A program made the translations under genes and the position numbers. Shown here piece after piece: positions 46,030 through 56,470 of a DNA stretch of 64,000 nucleotides (position 1 is its first letter; each line of letters begins with the position of its first letter). A model generated the notes under the pieces. That model worked only from the letters and a program-made list of their open reading frames with translations, had not been told where the DNA came from and ran no database searches. The stretch comes from Halanaerobiales bacterium (lineage in GTDB: Bacteria; Bacillota; Halanaerobiia; Halanaerobiales; Halanaerobiaceae): positions 1 to 64,000 of the forward strand of contig JADQBT010000006.1 of assembly GCA_016278485.1 (NCBI GenBank), read 5' to 3'.

Positions 46030-46650
46030 TTAAGCATATTTAAAAATTTGATCTACAAGTTTAGAATACCTATTATACTTTTCACGATAAAACTTAACAT
46101 TATCTATTATAGGTATAAAAGAAGCAGTCACTTTAAAGGCTTCCTTTAATTCTGAGACGTCATTAATAAAATCCAGAGTTTTTAAGGCTAACATTTCTTT
46201 GCCAATAAATTCTGACCCCACCTTTAACTCTAATAAATTAACTCTACTCTCTAAAATATCAGCTAAGAGTTGTGGCCAAATTCTACTTTTACTTCTTCCA
46301 GCAATTAAATTAATCTGCCGATTAGCATCAAAGATATCATCTTTATTCTCCAGCATTTCTAACAAATCATTCTTTAATGAAAAACACAAACTCTCTAAAA
46401 CAGCATTTGACCGCTGCCATTTATTTGTAGCATGGTTCAAATTTACAAAAACACCATTATCCACTTCTATGCTTAGTGGATTGTACTCTCCACTTATTAT
46501 TGGAATAAATGTAACTTCATTCACTCCAGGTGAAGTGTTCTGGAACTGTTTTTCAATTTTCTGGTATTTTTCATTTAAGATGCCGCCAGTAATTATGAAG
46601 TGTTCATCCTCAATATTGCTTAAAGTAAAATATTTCTTATTGGCTAACAT
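46030..46650 (-). pseudogene. C-terminal remnant of an FGGY-family carbohydrate kinase
   Basis: The 206-residue reading frame matches only the C-terminal half of FGGY kinases: VTFIPIISGEYNP, then INLIAGRSKSRIWPQLLADILESRVNLLEL, which parallels the GGGAKSQVWQQILADIFG region of the xylulokinase nearby. The whole N-terminal ATPase half is absent, and there is no good RBS near the ATG at 46650. Catalysis is not possible as it stands. The open frame is intact, so a retained binding role cannot be excluded, but a decaying fragment is more likely. Confidence 0.65.
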
Positions 46651-46677: not shown

Positions 46678-46880
46678 CTATTTTTCCTCCAATAACTCCT
46701 GTATCCGTGCATAACCTGTCCCATACTTATCCAAGTTCTGTTTAACATAAACTAATTTTACACCAAGTCCTTTTCCTTTGTCAAAATATTTAACTAATTT
46801 TTTTCCTAGATGGCCAAACACTATTATAATTTCTTCTGTTCCAACTGACCGTAATCTACTCCTTTACCAGTAGCTGAAAT
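46678..46880 (-). pseudogene. Remnant of a sugar nucleotidyltransferase
   Basis: Translated on the minus strand, EEIIIVFGHLGKKLVKYFDK and LGVKLVYVKQNLDKYGTGYA align with residues 48-89 of the intact nucleotidyltransferase domain encoded at 46978-49230 (DIIVVIGYQGQQIVDYFG, YVKQSLDKYGTGYAG). In another frame upstream, ISATGKGVDY resembles its LAAGKGTRL start. The piece between is deleted, the frame is shifted and the end is truncated. It is a decayed paralogue beside the kinase remnant. Confidence 0.7.
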
Positions 46881-46977: not shown

Positions 46978-49230
46978 TCAGAGATCTTCCGTTAACATCT
47001 GAGGTATATTTGTTTTTCTCCATATTGAACTGAGCTTATATATTGTTAGATAATCTACTTTAATACTACCACCCTTAACAGATAATTGAATCTCAGTTTG
47101 CTTTAATTCAGGAAAAACTAAATTTGTAGCCACTACTTCCCCATCATTTAAAAAGATTTCAATAGAAGACCTATCAACAAAAATATTAATTTTTAATTTT
47201 TTACCTTTAATTTTTTTCTCTATTTTTTTATTCAAAAGATAATTATCACTAAAAGTTGTATTCCCAGAATTACTCAGATTAATAAAAATATTATCATCTT
47301 TCAAATTAAAAATGATTAGAGATTCTTGATCTCCGCTTTTATGAAGTGCAAAAGCAAATTTTTCCGCATCATTAATATCTATTTCCGCTTTGATTTCATA
47401 GCTTTGCTCTTTACAATCAATTGTAAAGGTGTCAAAAAGATTATAATTATTTTTTTGATAAATTTTTTCTCGTAATTTTTTTAGCTCTTTTACTGGTTTT
47501 TGTATTAATGTAATTCCCTCTTTACCCTCTCTTAATTTAATCTCCCTTGGAATAGACATCATGCCTCTCCAACCTGTTGTCGGTATTATATTCTGATATC
47601 CAATATTATTCATCCAGCCAAGCCAGATATTTCTTCCTTCAGGCAAATTAGACCAACTTTGTAAAGAATAAAGATCCTGTCCATAGTCAACTAAAAAACT
47701 CTTCTCATAATCACTACTAAACTTTTCTCCGTCAAATTCACCAACAAAATATTGTACTGAAACCCCAGCTTCACCACCATTGGTGTCACCAACCTGTAAA
47801 AGCCATTTTTTCTTTTTGCTTTTTCCTGTATTACCATCTTTGTCACTATCTACTGGCAATTTAATTAAATCCGGACACTCCCAGACTCCACCATGTGAAC
47901 CTATACCAGAACCAAATTCACTTAAATAATTCCATTCCTTTAAATCAGAAGAATTATAAAACCTGACTCTATCACCACAGGCAACCACCATAACCCATTT
48001 TCCTGTCTCCGAATGCATAAAAACTTTAGGATCACGAAAATCTGCAACTCCATAATTTTTTATTACAGGATTATTTATATATTTAATCCAACTACGTCCA
48101 TTATCTTTACTATAAGCAATAGACTGTTGTTGTAAAGAACCCTCTTCTGTCTTAAGGCGGGAGGTATAAATAGCAACCAATCCGGAATTTCCCTTAAAAA
48201 AACCAGTACTATCATTTTTATCTACAACTGCTGATCCAGAATAAATCACACCCAACTTATCATCCGGCTTTAAGGCAATAGGAAGATGTTCCCAATACAA
48301 TAAATCCTTACTAACAGCATGGCCCCAATGCATTGGGCCCCAAACTACATCTACAGGATTGTGTTGATAAAAAAGATGATATTCTCCCTGATAATAAACC
48401 AGGCCATTAGGGTCATTCGCCCAATTTTTTTTAGGTGAGAAATGATATTGTGGTCTATACTTTTCTTTATATAAATTAATTTTTCCCTTATCATAAGGTT
48501 TGGAGAGAGGTGATGATAAAATTTTCTGGATATGTTCATAGTCCTCAGGAGTTCCTATATCTTGCCAGTAACTATCTATCTTAAATGAAGAAATATCTAC
48601 CCCATCATTTATCATTAAGTTAATTGCATGGCTAATTTCATATTCTCCACGCTCTGACTTAGATATTTTTTTAAGATATTTAAATAATATGGGTGAAAAT
48701 ATAAATAAGCCAGCACTATTCCAATTAGTTTTAGAACTGCCTTGCGGAGGTTTTTCAACCAATTTTTTAACAAGTCCATCTTCTTTAATATAAACAGCTC
48801 CACCCTCACTGGGGTCATCTACCCAATTAAGAGAAATTACTGCAGAGACATTATCATAATTTTGATATTGATTATATAATCTTTGATAGTTATCTTTAGT
48901 AATAATAATATCTCCAAAAGATAGCATGAAACTATCGTCTATTAGCGGTTCAACTAAAGAACCAGCATATCCTGTTCCATATTTGTCTAAACTTTGTTTT
49001 ACATATTGTAAATTAACTCTTAATTTATTTCCATCTCCAAAGTAATCAACTATTTGCTGACCCTGATATCCAATTACCACTATAATATCTGTAATACCAG
49101 CATCTCGCATTCCCTCAATAATATGTTCCAGACAATTCTTATTCCCTACTTTTAGCAAAGCTTTTGGCTTGTTTTCTGTAAGTTCTTCTAACCTGGTTCC
49201 TTTACCTGCTGCTAAAATTACACCTTTCAT
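46978..49230 (-). CDS. Fusion of sugar nucleotidyltransferase and GH32 beta-fructosidase
   Basis: A 750-residue single frame. Residues 1 to ~238 are a sugar-1-phosphate nucleotidyltransferase: GVILAAGKGTRLEEL, KPKALLKVG, SFGDIII, LVEKPP and YWQDIGTPEDY. Residues ~256-750 are a GH32 fructosidase with nucleophile motif WANDPNG (270-276, Asp273), FRDP (398-401) and acid/base ECP (451-453), then a beta-sandwich ending with FVDRSSIEIFLNDGEV. Both active sites look complete. No signal peptide, so it acts in the cytoplasm. I saw no good internal RBS for a separate GH32. Its ATG overlaps the mutase stop codon. It probably splits an imported fructoside and activates the released sugar phosphate (inferred). 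Confidence 0.88.
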   Translation of the reverse strand: MKGVILAAGKGTRLEELTENKPKALLKVGNKNCLEHIIEGMRDAGITDIIVVIGYQGQQIVDYFGDGNKLRVNLQYVKQSLDKYGTGYAGSLVEPLIDDSFMLSFGDIIITKDNYQRLYNQYQNYDNVSAVISLNWVDDPSEGGAVYIKEDGLVKKLVEKPPQGSSKTNWNSAGLFIFSPILFKYLKKISKSERGEYEISHAINLMINDGVDISSFKIDSYWQDIGTPEDYEHIQKILSSPLSKPYDKGKINLYKEKYRPQYHFSPKKNWANDPNGLVYYQGEYHLFYQHNPVDVVWGPMHWGHAVSKDLLYWEHLPIALKPDDKLGVIYSGSAVVDKNDSTGFFKGNSGLVAIYTSRLKTEEGSLQQQSIAYSKDNGRSWIKYINNPVIKNYGVADFRDPKVFMHSETGKWVMVVACGDRVRFYNSSDLKEWNYLSEFGSGIGSHGGVWECPDLIKLPVDSDKDGNTGKSKKKKWLLQVGDTNGGEAGVSVQYFVGEFDGEKFSSDYEKSFLVDYGQDLYSLQSWSNLPEGRNIWLGWMNNIGYQNIIPTTGWRGMMSIPREIKLREGKEGITLIQKPVKELKKLREKIYQKNNYNLFDTFTIDCKEQSYEIKAEIDINDAEKFAFALHKSGDQESLIIFNLKDDNIFINLSNSGNTTFSDNYLLNKKIEKKIKGKKLKINIFVDRSSIEIFLNDGEVVATNLVFPELKQTEIQLSVKGGSIKVDYLTIYKLSSIWRKTNIPQMLTEDL

Positions 49231-50681
49231 TATAAACCATCATCCAACTGCAGTAACTCATCCCTTTTGATTAAATTAACCATAGCATCTATTTCAAATT
49301 GAGAATTCATCTCCATATATATTCTCAGCAATGGTTCAGTCCCGGAAAACCTGATCGATAACCAGGTCCCATCTGTAAAGTAATATTTCACACCATCCAT
49401 GTAGGAAATTTTTTCTATCTCCTTTTCCCTGCCACAGCTTTCTTGGGCGACAAAGCAAGGCACATATTTTTCTGTAAATAGAAGTTCTTCCAGACGTTCC
49501 TTTTCTTCTGGCTCATAATTAAGATTTAATGAATAAAAGTGCAAGTTACCGAACTTATTACTTATTTCTTTTAACAATTCACTTAATGTTTTTCCTGTTT
49601 TGGCCAGCATTTCTACTGAAAGAAGAGCTGCTTGAATCCCGTCTTTTCCATTAATCCGACCGCGTATTTTTAACCCACCACTACTTTCTCCACCGAGCAG
49701 AAGATCTTCTTCCTCCATTTTGGAAGAGATATGCTTAAATCCTACTGGTACCTCATAAGCCTTTTCACCATAGCTTTCCGCTATTCTATCGAGAATATGG
49801 GTTGTCGTTAGGTTTCTGACGACCCCACCCTTTTCACTCCTATATTCCAGAAAATAATAATAAAGCAATTTTAGAATTTGATTAGCATCCACATAGCTAC
49901 CCCGATCATCATAAAGACCTAGTCGGTCAGAATCACCATCAGTGGCAATTCCCAGATAATAGTCCTCATTTTTCATCTGGTATTCCATATCCTGCAAACT
50001 CTCCCGCTCAGGTGAAGGAACTTTGGTGCCAAACATCGTATCCCGATAATCATTAATCGTATCTACTGAGCAACGTAGTGAGGCTAAACACATCATCATA
50101 ATATCCTTAGAAACACCATACATTGGGTTAAAAAGAATCTTTAAATTTTGTTTAGCAATTGCCTCTGTGTCAACTTGTCCTAAAAGAAAATCAATATAGT
50201 TATTTTTAATTGTATAGTATTTAATCTTTTCTTCTTTAATCAGTTTAAAGAAACTACCATAGATGACAGGAGCATTATCTAAAATATTAATATATTTTTC
50301 CAGCTCTTCTGTTACCTCGAGCGGTGCATCTTTACCACCTTTGGTAAACAGTTTAATTCCATTATATTCTGGTGGATTATGGGAAGCCGTGATAGTGACC
50401 CCAAAATCAAGACCCTCTACTTCAACTGCATACATGACCATCGGAGTCGGCACTGCATCTTCAATAAAAAGTGCTTCTATGTCATTAACAGCCAGTACCT
50501 CAGCAAAAGCACGGGAAAACCGGCCAGAAAGAAAACGAAAATCATGTCCTACAATTACCCTTTTCTTACTTCCCTGATCAATAATCATATCACTTAAACC
50601 CTTGGCAACTTTTCTTACATTTTCAAAAGTAAATTCCTCTGCAATGACAGCCCGCCAACCACCTGTACCAAATTTTATCAT
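49230..50681 (-). CDS. Phosphoglucomutase/phosphomannomutase family
   Basis: A 483-residue alpha-D-phosphohexomutase moving phosphate between C6 and C1 of a hexose. Landmarks are KFGTGGWRAVIAEEFT, the phosphoserine loop TITASHNPPEYNGIK (about 97-111), the metal loop IATDGDSDRLG (about 241-251), sugar loop GGESSGGLKIRG and phosphate loop RFSGTEPLLRIYME. It immediately precedes the nucleotidyltransferase fusion, so glucose 6-phosphate to glucose 1-phosphate to NDP-glucose is the natural reading. RBS AAGGGGTG. Confidence 0.93.
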   Translation of the reverse strand: MIKFGTGGWRAVIAEEFTFENVRKVAKGLSDMIIDQGSKKRVIVGHDFRFLSGRFSRAFAEVLAVNDIEALFIEDAVPTPMVMYAVEVEGLDFGVTITASHNPPEYNGIKLFTKGGKDAPLEVTEELEKYINILDNAPVIYGSFFKLIKEEKIKYYTIKNNYIDFLLGQVDTEAIAKQNLKILFNPMYGVSKDIMMMCLASLRCSVDTINDYRDTMFGTKVPSPERESLQDMEYQMKNEDYYLGIATDGDSDRLGLYDDRGSYVDANQILKLLYYYFLEYRSEKGGVVRNLTTTHILDRIAESYGEKAYEVPVGFKHISSKMEEEDLLLGGESSGGLKIRGRINGKDGIQAALLSVEMLAKTGKTLSELLKEISNKFGNLHFYSLNLNYEPEEKERLEELLFTEKYVPCFVAQESCGREKEIEKISYMDGVKYYFTDGTWLSIRFSGTEPLLRIYMEMNSQFEIDAMVNLIKRDELLQLDDGL

Positions 50682-50685
50682 AAGA

Positions 50686-51519
50686 TCACCCCTTTGTCCC
50701 AGAAGTTAGCATGCCGCGTACAAAATATTTCTGCATTGTGATATAGATTAAAAGCAGGGGTAAGATAGAAATAACTGAACCAGCTAAAAGAAGGTGCCAC
50801 TGTGTACCGTAATTTCCTCTAAACATTGCTAACCCCATTGTTATCGTGTAAAGTGAAGGTTTATCGATATAGATTACCGGACGCAGTAAGGCATTCCAGT
50901 TATTCATAAATGCAATAATAAAGAGTGAAGCTAAAGCCGGCTTTGCATTTGGTAGAAAAACCTTATAATACATCTGCCAGTCATTTACTCCATCAATAAA
51001 TGCTGCCTCTTCCATAGAAGATGGCATATTTTCAAAAGTACTTCTGAACAAAAAAGTTCCAAAAGAACCAATTAAAATCGATGGTATAATTAAAGGCAAA
51101 AATGTATTATACCAGTCTAATTTTAACATAATAAAATACTCGGGTATAATTGTGACCTGAATCGGCATCATCATCGTGGCTAGCATTAAAGCAAAAATGA
51201 TTTCTTTTCCCCGAAAATCCATCCTGGCAAAAGCAAATCCTCCCAGGCTGCAGGTGAAAAGTTGGCCTAGAGCAGCAAAACCTGCCACCATAAAAGAATT
51301 AAGAATAAAACGAATAAAATTATATTCCTGCAAAATCATTCTGTAATTTTCCCACATACCCGGTTTGAATAATTTAGATGGAATAAATTTAGGTGTTAAG
51401 GAGAATATCTCCCCCATTGTTTTAAATGAAGATGAAAGCATCCACAGAAACGGAAAAATAGTTGTCAAAGAAATAATAAATAATATTAAATATAATAATA
51501 GCTTCCTGCTGCGACTCAT
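50686..51519 (-). CDS. Sugar ABC permease, MalG type
   Basis: A 277-residue permease with six spans and the EAA loop EEAAFIDGVNDWQMYYKVFLPNAKPAL. ATG at 51519 with GGGGG eight bases upstream is preferred over GTG at 51528. It follows its MalF-type partner by a few bases. No ATPase gene is present in this operon, so a shared MsmX-like ATPase encoded elsewhere is expected. Confidence 0.93.
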   Translation of the reverse strand: MSRSRKLLLYLILFIISLTTIFPFLWMLSSSFKTMGEIFSLTPKFIPSKLFKPGMWENYRMILQEYNFIRFILNSFMVAGFAALGQLFTCSLGGFAFARMDFRGKEIIFALMLATMMMPIQVTIIPEYFIMLKLDWYNTFLPLIIPSILIGSFGTFLFRSTFENMPSSMEEAAFIDGVNDWQMYYKVFLPNAKPALASLFIIAFMNNWNALLRPVIYIDKPSLYTITMGLAMFRGNYGTQWHLLLAGSVISILPLLLIYITMQKYFVRGMLTSGTKG

Positions 51520-51531
51520 TGAACGCACCCC

Positions 51532-52407
51532 CTATTCACTATAATTAACCCAACGGTCTTTAAATTTAAAGTTCAAATAAGTAACTACCCCAACCATAAT
51601 AAACAAAATATATGACATCGCTGAAGCATATCCCATGCGGAAATGTTTAAAGGCATTTACATAAATACTAAAGATAAGAGTAGAAGAAGCATAATTTGGT
51701 CCACCCTGAGTCATGATATATGTTAGTTCAAATGTCTTTAAGGATGTAATTAAGGACATGATCAGAATAAAAAAGGTTGTTGGTGATAAGAGAGGTAAAG
51801 TTATATGGCGAAATTTTTGCCATATACTTGCTCCATCAATAGTAGCAGCCTCATAGTATATTTCCGGAATATTCTGCAGCCCAGCCAAGAAAAGAATCAT
51901 AAAATAACCGGCCATTTTCCAGATATAGACAACGATCAGTGTTAATAATGCATAACGAGCATCACCAAGAAATGACGGCAACCTTACTACATTAAAAAAC
52001 TTACTTACCAGCTGATATAAGAGACCAAATCTCGGACTTAAGATCCAGCTCCAGATAACACCAATTGAGACTACTGATGTTATTACTGGCAGATAAAAAA
52101 GACCGCGAAAAAAGGTCATCCCTTTTAGCCTATTATTTACCAGGACAGCAAGCAAAAGTGCCACAGCCATAACTCCAGGTACAAAGAGCAGACTAAAAAT
52201 AATCGTATTACGTAAAATCAATAAAAAGACATCAGAATTAAAAAGTTCAATATAATTGCCCAGTCCTATCCATTCTGGTGGAGAAAAGACACTCCACCTG
52301 GTAAAACTAGCCAGGCCCGCTGCCAGCATCGGACCTAGACGAAACAAGATCAGACCAAGCAGGGTTGGAATCAAAAAAAGCCAGGGTGTGAATTTTCTAT
52401 ATTGCAT
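51532..52407 (-). CDS. Sugar ABC permease, MalF type
   Basis: A 291-residue permease with six spans and the EAA loop YYEAATIDGASIWQKFRHITLPLLSPT. The N-terminus KFTPWLFLIPTLLGLILFRLGPM is typical of the family. RBS AAAGGAGG precedes the ATG. It is separated from the binding-protein gene by a perfect hairpin. Confidence 0.93.
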   Translation of the reverse strand: MQYRKFTPWLFLIPTLLGLILFRLGPMLAAGLASFTRWSVFSPPEWIGLGNYIELFNSDVFLLILRNTIIFSLLFVPGVMAVALLLAVLVNNRLKGMTFFRGLFYLPVITSVVSIGVIWSWILSPRFGLLYQLVSKFFNVVRLPSFLGDARYALLTLIVVYIWKMAGYFMILFLAGLQNIPEIYYEAATIDGASIWQKFRHITLPLLSPTTFFILIMSLITSLKTFELTYIMTQGGPNYASSTLIFSIYVNAFKHFRMGYASAMSYILFIMVGVVTYLNFKFKDRWVNYSE

Positions 52408-52430
52408 AAATCCGGTCCTCCTTTAAAGAG

Positions 52431-52460
52431 AAAAAGGGGATATCTAGATATCCCCTTTTT
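52431..52460 (-). terminator. Perfect palindrome after the sugar binding-protein gene
   Basis: AAAAAGGGGATATCT and its exact complement form a 30-base palindrome, with a T-run on both strands. Lying between binding protein and permease of one operon, it most likely causes partial termination, so that more binding protein than permease is made. Confidence 0.8.
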
Positions 52461-52470
52461 TAATTATAAT

Positions 52471-53781
52471 TTACTGTTCTGGATAATATCTTTCTAGTAC
52501 TTCATTTCCGTATTTAGTAAAGGTAGTAATAGCTTCCTCGACAGTCATTTCACCATTAGTTATACTATCGAGAACACCGTTCATACCAGCGCCGCCAGTA
52601 TCAGCATAACCGCGCCATTCTCCCCAGCCAATGGTAAAGCTAGTTCTACCCATATTTTCTCCTAATTCAAGAATTATGTCCATTTCCTGAGGTTTTTTAT
52701 CCTTCTCCAACCATTCTTCTGAATTAGCAAGTGATTTATAGATAGGAACTTTACCTGCCATATAAGACTCTAATGGACGGTTTTTACCGATTAGATATTT
52801 TACTAATTTCCATGCAGCATCTTTATTACTAGTAGTTTTTGAAATAACGATTGAATCTGGCCATCCATAAGCATTATATTCGCCTGGTTCTGCTGATGGA
52901 CCTGCTGGTACTTTAGCAATACCCCAATCAAAAGCTCCCTGACTCATGTTACGAATATGCGCGATATTCCAGGAACCATCAACCCACATAGCTGTTTGCT
53001 GTAAGGGGAACATATCATTTTGTCTAATACCAACAGTATCTTTTTTAGGTGGTGATACATTATATTTATTACTAAGATCTGCTAAAAATTGAATTGCTTC
53101 TTTTGCCTTATCATCTACAGCAATTCTTGTTTTTTCTTGATTAAGAATCCGACCGCCATTAGCATAGATCCATGGTTCTACATGGGCATAACGACCGTAC
53201 CACCAAAAACCATACTGTTCTGGCACACCATCTTCATTTTCATCAAGGGTTAACTTTTGGGTAGCTTTTCGGAAATCTTCCCAGGTCCAGTTATCAGAAG
53301 GGTATTCAACACCTGCTGTGTCAAACATATCTTTATTGTAATAAAGCACTGTAGTTACCCAGGCATAAGGAATACCATACATGTCACTGCTTTCTTTATC
53401 TGGGTAACGCATTGTAGAAAATACTTTTGTAAAATAGTCGTCTGCAGGTAACTGGTCTACTTTATCCTGAATGTTCATTAAAAGACCATCTCGTGCCCAC
53501 TGATCAACATAGCCTGAAGACATGTTAAACACATCAGGTAATTCCCCGGCAGAGGCCATTGCAGAAATCTTTGGCCAATAGTTTGAGGGTTCTAAAGCAG
53601 TAAACTCAACTTTAATATCCGGGTTTTCTTTTTCAAACTGATTGATCAATTCCTGTTCTAAATCTTTAAATTCTGGATCCCACATAAAATAACGGATAGT
53701 TGTTGTCTCCGCCATAACTGCAAAAGCAAAAACCGAAACCAACAAAATAGCTAAAATAGTAATAATTAAACTTTTTCTCAT
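52471..53781 (-). CDS. Family 1 sugar ABC binding protein
   Basis: A 436-residue extracytoplasmic binding protein of the maltose/oligosaccharide type. The signal peptide is at the start (SLIITILAILLVSVFAFAVMA). Then come TTIRYFMWDPEFKDLEQELINQFEKENPDIKVEF, LPDVFNMSSGYVDQWARDGLL and YNKDMFDTAGVEYP. The start at 53781 is chosen for AGGAGG six bases upstream and because the signal peptide begins there; the frame runs open to 53856 inside the previous gene. The ligand is unknown; the GH32 domain suggests sucrose or a fructo-oligosaccharide. Confidence 0.92.
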   Translation of the reverse strand: MRKSLIITILAILLVSVFAFAVMAETTTIRYFMWDPEFKDLEQELINQFEKENPDIKVEFTALEPSNYWPKISAMASAGELPDVFNMSSGYVDQWARDGLLMNIQDKVDQLPADDYFTKVFSTMRYPDKESSDMYGIPYAWVTTVLYYNKDMFDTAGVEYPSDNWTWEDFRKATQKLTLDENEDGVPEQYGFWWYGRYAHVEPWIYANGGRILNQEKTRIAVDDKAKEAIQFLADLSNKYNVSPPKKDTVGIRQNDMFPLQQTAMWVDGSWNIAHIRNMSQGAFDWGIAKVPAGPSAEPGEYNAYGWPDSIVISKTTSNKDAAWKLVKYLIGKNRPLESYMAGKVPIYKSLANSEEWLEKDKKPQEMDIILELGENMGRTSFTIGWGEWRGYADTGGAGMNGVLDSITNGEMTVEEAITTFTKYGNEVLERYYPEQ

Positions 53782-55333: not shown

Positions 55334-56470
55334 TTATCTACTCCTGGCGAATTGAAATTCTTTTATGTCAAAAAATTTATTCATAATTAAGCAAACAATT
55401 GCATTTTCTAGTGGATTTTTGCGGTGTTTACTTCTTTTTATCTCTGGTAAATAATTCATTTCCCCTGCCATTATTTTTTCCTTAACCTGATGGTAAATCA
55501 AATCATTATAATCAAAAACATTTCCGGTAAGTAATACTTTTTTTGGATTAAGCAGATTAATGGTGGAAAGCATCATACGAGCAATATAGGTTGTAAACTC
55601 AGCCAGTTCGATTTCATTTTGTTCATTCCGGCTGATAAATTCTTCATATTTGCGATTTAATTTTTTAATTTTTTCTTTTTGAAATTTCTCAGAATAATAT
55701 GGCTGTGCATTTATTTCTTTAAGATATTCATCATTTTTAATAATATAGTCAAGTCTTTTTAGTTCATCCCCAAAGAAACGATTTTCTCCAGCTCTGTTAG
55801 TGTAACCCTGTAAAATTTGATTTTTTACTACCAGGGCCAGGCCGATACCTTCTCCAATATATAGTACAGTAGTAATATTACGATCATCTTCTGTTTCTAA
55901 TTCATTATAGGCGTAAACTCTTACATCTGTTTCCACAAAGACCGGTATTTTCAATTCAGCTTCTAACTCTAGAGCCAGCGGTTTATCTGTCCAATCTAAC
56001 AGATTGGAACGATCAACATTTTTATTTGCAAAGTCAGTAACACCAGAGATGGAGATTCCCATAGCAAGGATTTGCTCTGCAGTCAAACTTAATTCAGTCA
56101 GCATTGTATCAACGGCACTAGTTATTTCTCCTATATAATTTGTAAATCGGTGATTTTCAAGATAATGAATCCGACTAAAAATAATTCTTCCTTTTAAGTC
56201 TGTCAGAAAAATATAAAAATGAGTGTCTTTGAGATCAAGTCCAATAATATAACGAAATTCATCATTAGTTTGATAAATAACCGCCCTGCGTCCTCCGCTT
56301 GAAACCGCTTTCTTGCGGGGAATCATCCAGTTTTTATCTACCAATTCATTTATGTAATCTGAAATAGCAGTTAGCGATAATCCCACTTCTTCTGCTAATT
56401 CTGGTTTGGTCAATGAACCTTTTTCAAAAACTTGCTGGTATAAGTTTTTTATACGAGTTCTCTTTTTCAT
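55334..56470 (-). CDS. ROK-family regulator lacking the zinc motif
   Basis: A 378-residue regulator with an N-terminal winged helix (IKNLYQQVFEKGSLTKPELA then LSLTAISDYINELVDKN, about 8-50) and a ROK domain (IIGLDLKDTHFYIFLTDLKG; VLYIGEGIGLALVVKNQILQG). The usual CxCGxxGCxE zinc group after the GExGH region is missing; the sequence there is AGENRFFGDELKRLDYII. This suggests altered sugar sensing. It heads the operon and probably binds the tandem repeat upstream. RBS GGAGAG. Confidence 0.87.
   Translation of the reverse strand: MKKRTRIKNLYQQVFEKGSLTKPELAEEVGLSLTAISDYINELVDKNWMIPRKKAVSSGGRRAVIYQTNDEFRYIIGLDLKDTHFYIFLTDLKGRIIFSRIHYLENHRFTNYIGEITSAVDTMLTELSLTAEQILAMGISISGVTDFANKNVDRSNLLDWTDKPLALELEAELKIPVFVETDVRVYAYNELETEDDRNITTVLYIGEGIGLALVVKNQILQGYTNRAGENRFFGDELKRLDYIIKNDEYLKEINAQPYYSEKFQKEKIKKLNRKYEEFISRNEQNEIELAEFTTYIARMMLSTINLLNPKKVLLTGNVFDYNDLIYHQVKEKIMAGEMNYLPEIKRSKHRKNPLENAIVCLIMNKFFDIKEFQFARSR

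Follow-up and report, generated by a model that had tools for sequence, protein, structure and literature searches.

Among proteins of known structure, the closest to the N-terminal half of the gene analysed here is the dual sugar-1-phosphate nucleotidylyltransferase of Sulfolobus (2ggo/5z09; E 5.6e-27), which resembles it across the whole nucleotidyltransferase domain, in its motifs and in the spacing around Q79...GTG. In 2ggo this domain is followed by a C-terminal left-handed beta-helix domain, at the place where our protein has GH32. Free-standing GH32 proteins of the levanase/exo-inulinase type, the group to which the C-terminal half is nearest, share its catalytic residues and, like it, have no signal peptide. 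However, they have their own ATG and none contains a nucleotidyltransferase, whereas in the fused gene a linker replaces the start codon.

Longer proteins that begin with a nucleotidyltransferase domain also occur among the relatives, in frames of ~820-870 aa. Their partner is probably, as is usual in such proteins, a phosphohexomutase, which is a pathway neighbour and not a glycosidase. Finally, the nucleotidyltransferases of counterpart operons in three related genomes (G012, G008 and G036) have the same domain and motifs and occupy the same place after the mutase. The operon copies in G008, G011 and G036 end at the position of the joint, whereas the fused protein continues into GH32.

Domain layout of the fused gene

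The gene lies in a window of 64,000 nucleotides, the whole stretch of DNA that was analysed. It is an uninterrupted frame of 750 codons on the minus strand, which starts with an ATG at 49230, ends at 46978 and overlaps the mutase stop by one base. A preliminary description of this DNA gave the right coordinates (46978-49230), but the plus-strand translation of the interval has many stops and no open frame.

Two complete enzymes share the frame, a nucleotidyltransferase (residues 1-238) and a GH32 beta-fructosidase (residues ~252-740). Pfam recognizes NTP_transferase at residues 2-236 (E 2e-38, 132.8 bits, cut-off 21.2), Glyco_hydro_32N at 263-579 (E 1.7e-95, 320.6 bits, cut-off 22.1) and Glyco_hydro_32C at 582-731 (E 1.5e-26, 93.7 bits, cut-off 21.9). 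All three matches exceed their cut-offs and span nearly the whole profiles, and solved homologues cover the whole domain for both halves. The frame and the Pfam spans thus bear out the original claim of two complete enzymes. The same holds for the claim that the catalytic residues are intact in both, since the alignments described below show complete catalytic motifs in the two halves alike.

The first half is an NTP_transferase of the RmlA/GlmU type that lacks the C-terminal left-handed beta-helix domain. It stops at the same point as its free-standing relatives, which argues that no domain has been cut off. Compared with five relatives from related genomes, it keeps LAAGKGTR, PK, FGDI (D107), VEKP, WNSAG and YWQDIGTP (D224). 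With a domain score above the cut-off and with GxGxR, the Mg-binding Asp, EKP and W.D.G all present, it belongs among the sugar-1-phosphate nucleotidyltransferases. As for the specificity subfamily (RmlA, GlmU, AglF, MurU or GalU), all the NCBIfam curated models listed score far below cut-off, TIGR03992 giving 189.9 against 292.1 and TIGR01208 154.8 against 320.25. An archaeal-type GlmU bifunctional enzyme was considered and rejected, as model positions 1-228 of 393 alone match and the next domain is GH32. The spacing from Q79 to GTG, which is as in 2ggo, would point to UTP or dTTP as the nucleotide. The gene neighbours of two relatives would fit a UDP-glucose/galactose role: a further free-standing relative (47%), in G131, has beside it genes that by eye are galactokinase-like and UDP-glucose 4-epimerase-like, and in G036 an epimerase-like gene lies upstream of the operon.

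In the GH32 half, the N-terminal propeller and the C-terminal sandwich are both complete and a signal peptide is absent. When the fused protein was aligned with 29 GH32 proteins from named genomes, NDPNG (D273), RD (R399, D400) and WE (E451) were invariant in all 30 sequences; the nucleophile in NDPNG, the RDP motif and the acid/base in WEC are those of the GH32 family. Assignment to the sucrose-6-phosphate hydrolases (ScrB, TIGR01322) was rejected at 256.1 bits against a cut-off of 356.4.

In an AlphaFold2 model most of the GH32 half has a pLDDT above 90, while residues 242-252, at the joint, fall below 50. The linker is therefore predicted to be disordered and flexible next to a well-folded GH32 domain. 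The nucleotidyltransferase half was modelled poorly because the input alignment contained no relatives of that half, and a search of viral contigs for relatives that might improve the model found none.

Table 1. Features of the fused gene, its operon and the region downstream
Feature	Position	Strand	Basis
ROK-family regulator with HTH, first gene of the operon	55334..56470	-	Pfam ROK, HTH_24
NAGPA-like protein, phosphodiester glycosidase domain, 513 aa	53792..55333	-	Pfam NAGPA, E 5.2e-16
Importer solute-binding protein	52471..53778	-	Pfam SBP_bac_1, E 1.1e-44
Two CUT1-type ABC sugar importer permeases	50686-51528, 51532-52407	-	Pfam BPD_transp_1
Phosphohexomutase, PGM/PMM family	49230..50681	-	Pfam PGM_PMM I-IV
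Nucleotidyltransferase half, residues 1-238	48517..49230	-	Pfam, solved relatives, motifs
Linker SSPLSKPYDKGKI, residues 239-251	48478..48516	-	Junction DNA, starts of free-standing relatives, pLDDT
GH32 half, residues 252-740	47011..48477	-	Pfam, solved relatives 8i12 and 1y4w, pLDDT
Remnant of a second nucleotidyltransferase, same subfamily	46681..46854	-	Just downstream of the fused gene
FGGY sugar kinase, C-terminal remnant	46030-46650	-	Downstream of the fused gene

The operon and its counterparts

Pfam confirmed that the neighbours are a phosphohexomutase and a sugar importer, as had been proposed from the sequence (Table 1). The frame of the solute-binding protein was listed from 53856, but its start context makes an ATG at ~53778 the likelier start.

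The order ROK-NAGPA-SBP-permease-permease-mutase-nucleotidyltransferase is complete in G008, without GH32. The same order is found in G012, whose contig breaks off within the nucleotidyltransferase, and G036, which belongs to another family, has the operon in pieces on small contigs, its nucleotidyltransferase also without GH32. The operon without an attached GH32 therefore exists in two families. In G012, G008 and G036 the ROK regulator holds the same position; the permeases are 83-88% identical to those of G012 and G008, and mutase orthologues (60-71%) adjoin a nucleotidyltransferase in these three genomes and in G011. In G008 and G011 the gene after the nucleotidyltransferase encodes a GntR-type regulator, followed by genes that on inspection are amino-sugar-like, not by GH32.

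At third codon positions, the GC content of the genes for the mutase, the permeases and the NAGPA-like protein (0.30-0.34) falls in the upper tail of the genome-wide distribution, and it steps from 0.31 to 0.19 at the border between mutase and nucleotidyltransferase. Both halves of the fused gene (0.19-0.22) are typical of the genome. A compositional break at the joint itself was sought and rejected (nucleotidyltransferase 0.19, GH32 0.22). Downstream of the fused gene lie the remnants of two genes. The first of them has 48% identity to the fused protein over residues 41-100 of the latter, and in a separate comparison 25 of 42 residues agreed. This indicates that the operon end has been rearranged.

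Origin of the joint

Searches with the full protein covered the class (59 genomes), 398 genomes sampled from the phylum and two orders in which this GH32 is abundant (397 and 395 genomes). As the preliminary description had advised, we looked for the domain pair in other genomes, and it was absent from the 59 class and ~1,190 phylum genomes: GH32 matches ran to hundreds, and none of those listed enters the nucleotidyltransferase region beyond a few residues. Similarly, no record among 72,556 plasmids spans 80% of the query, and neither this nucleotidyltransferase nor the mutase lies near any of 80 named GH32 loci. Thus, among the genomes, plasmids and loci sampled, the in-frame join is present only in the genome of this one anaerobic bacterium. 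A literature search gave no description of a nucleotidyltransferase-GH32 fusion, which agrees with the initial statement that no enzyme of this kind had been described.

Longer GH32 frames were examined as candidate independent fusions and rejected, as the extensions in G023 and G032 (735-742 aa) and in L014 and L046 (822-840 aa) have no nucleotidyltransferase match. The GH32 proteins at L110:3226-5439 and L111:3181-5388 carry an N-terminal extension of ~290 residues, also with no nucleotidyltransferase match.

The closest GH32 proteins, from G009, G010, G005 and G012, are 60-67% identical across the whole GH32 half. They are free-standing, begin at their own ATG with MDKMIANNLYKEKYRLQ or MLVDNLYKEKYRPQ, and several adjoin other ABC transporters. 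In the tree the fused GH32 nests within a clade of such free-standing relatives (support 100/100); a search of this genome for a second GH32 gave none, which leaves the fused copy as the sole one. As the parts are separate in relatives and the fused GH32 is nested in a free-standing clade, the fused state is derived and lineage-specific. From these comparisons, it is best explained as a recent fusion at the operon end.

We consider it probable that this was an end-to-end gene fusion which left two independent enzymes on a tether, with co-expression and not channelling as its consequence. A GH32 gene like the free-standing ones of the relatives would have become continuous, in frame, with the nucleotidyltransferase, the last gene of the operon. 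Both would then be made as one cytoplasmic polypeptide with a short flexible linker and two active sites that presumably work independently. For the N-terminal half the likeliest product is UDP- or dTDP-glucose (or a closely similar sugar), with the mutase providing the sugar 1-phosphate, and the C-terminal half would hydrolyse terminal beta-fructosides, for example sucrose or short fructans. The main effect of the join may be that GH32 is co-expressed under the ROK regulator of the operon. It is worth stressing that none of the other genomes sampled carries the fusion, so that conservation gives no sign of the joined protein being expressed or under selection.

It is unlikely, but deserves attention, that sequencing or assembly produced the join by error, with one missing or extra base merging two adjacent, overlapping operon genes. 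The fusion occurs in a single genome, homologues of both halves exist as separate genes, and at the joint there is an out-of-frame ATG where one added base would close the first gene with a stop codon and open GH32 with a start resembling those of its relatives (MDK...). However, 93% of shuffled junctions permit such a one-base interpretation, so the joint sequence is compatible with an error but is not evidence for one, and we rejected it as such. No Shine-Dalgarno-like sequence precedes the out-of-frame ATG. Assembly quality, judged on a sample of 76 kb of homologue-covered coding sequence, also speaks against an error, with 0 frameshifts in 260 homologue matches. Frames throughout the window are long and intact except for the two remnants. 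Loss of one base at the joint, whether genuine or an artefact, would give the same sequence. The preliminary description would have recognized an error by reads or by split orthologues with a stop codon at the linker; split homologues do exist, and the assembled frame is open through the linker.

Possible roles of the fused protein

A chance fusion of little use seems improbable. Here the frame would be genuine, and one of the halves, GH32 more probably than the nucleotidyltransferase, would be a passenger heading for loss. The remnants directly downstream, of a nucleotidyltransferase and an FGGY kinase, would suit such decay, but both halves keep their full length and all catalytic residues, and neither departs from the usual codon composition of this genome.

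The preliminary description had also proposed a compact route from fructoside to nucleotide sugar. In such a bifunctional enzyme an imported fructoside would be cleaved and its glucosyl unit handed on, by way of the mutase, to the nucleotidyltransferase; alternatively, one domain would control the other. Importer and enzymes do together form what appears to be a single operon, and ROK-family sugar kinase candidates encoded elsewhere in this genome could phosphorylate glucose. GH32 hydrolysis, however, releases free glucose and fructose, whereas the mutase and the nucleotidyltransferase act on sugar phosphates. A direct route therefore lacks a kinase step within the operon, which contains no intact sugar kinase; the step would have to come from outside it. 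Moreover, G008 and G036 have the operon but no GH32 in it, and the importer keeps 79-88% identity in operons of this kind, so that the ligand it carries is not necessarily a fructoside. The nearest GH32 proteins stand alone by other transporters, and the fusion has no conserved counterpart. We therefore regard the bifunctional enzyme as very improbable, and think it just as doubtful that proximity or cross-sensing of substrates couples fructoside cleavage to nucleotide-sugar synthesis.

Were such coupling true, it would let the cell direct the glucose moiety of sucrose, once imported, into making polymers or glycoconjugates. Under the favoured reading of an end-to-end fusion, little is added as a pathway, as both enzymes are ordinary and their substrates are in different chemical states. 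Provided that the cell makes the joined protein, it presents a domain pair not met in ~1,250 other sampled genomes and a clean gene fusion at an operon end, with the separate parts visible in relatives. Such a fusion would permit a direct test of coupling against co-expression alone.

Some other features of this region deserve mention. In the NAGPA-like protein of 513 aa the NAGPA domain is C-terminal, with no recognised N-terminal domain and no obvious signal peptide; among the genomes searched the protein was found in this operon only, in four genomes (G000, G012, G008 and G036), and in no other genome of the 398-genome phylum sample. An intact paralogue of the FGGY kinase (about 50% identical) lies at ~77,000-78,500 on the same contig. 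Between the genes for the solute-binding protein and the first permease there is a near-perfect palindrome (52430-52461), of the kind that lowers permease expression relative to the binding protein.
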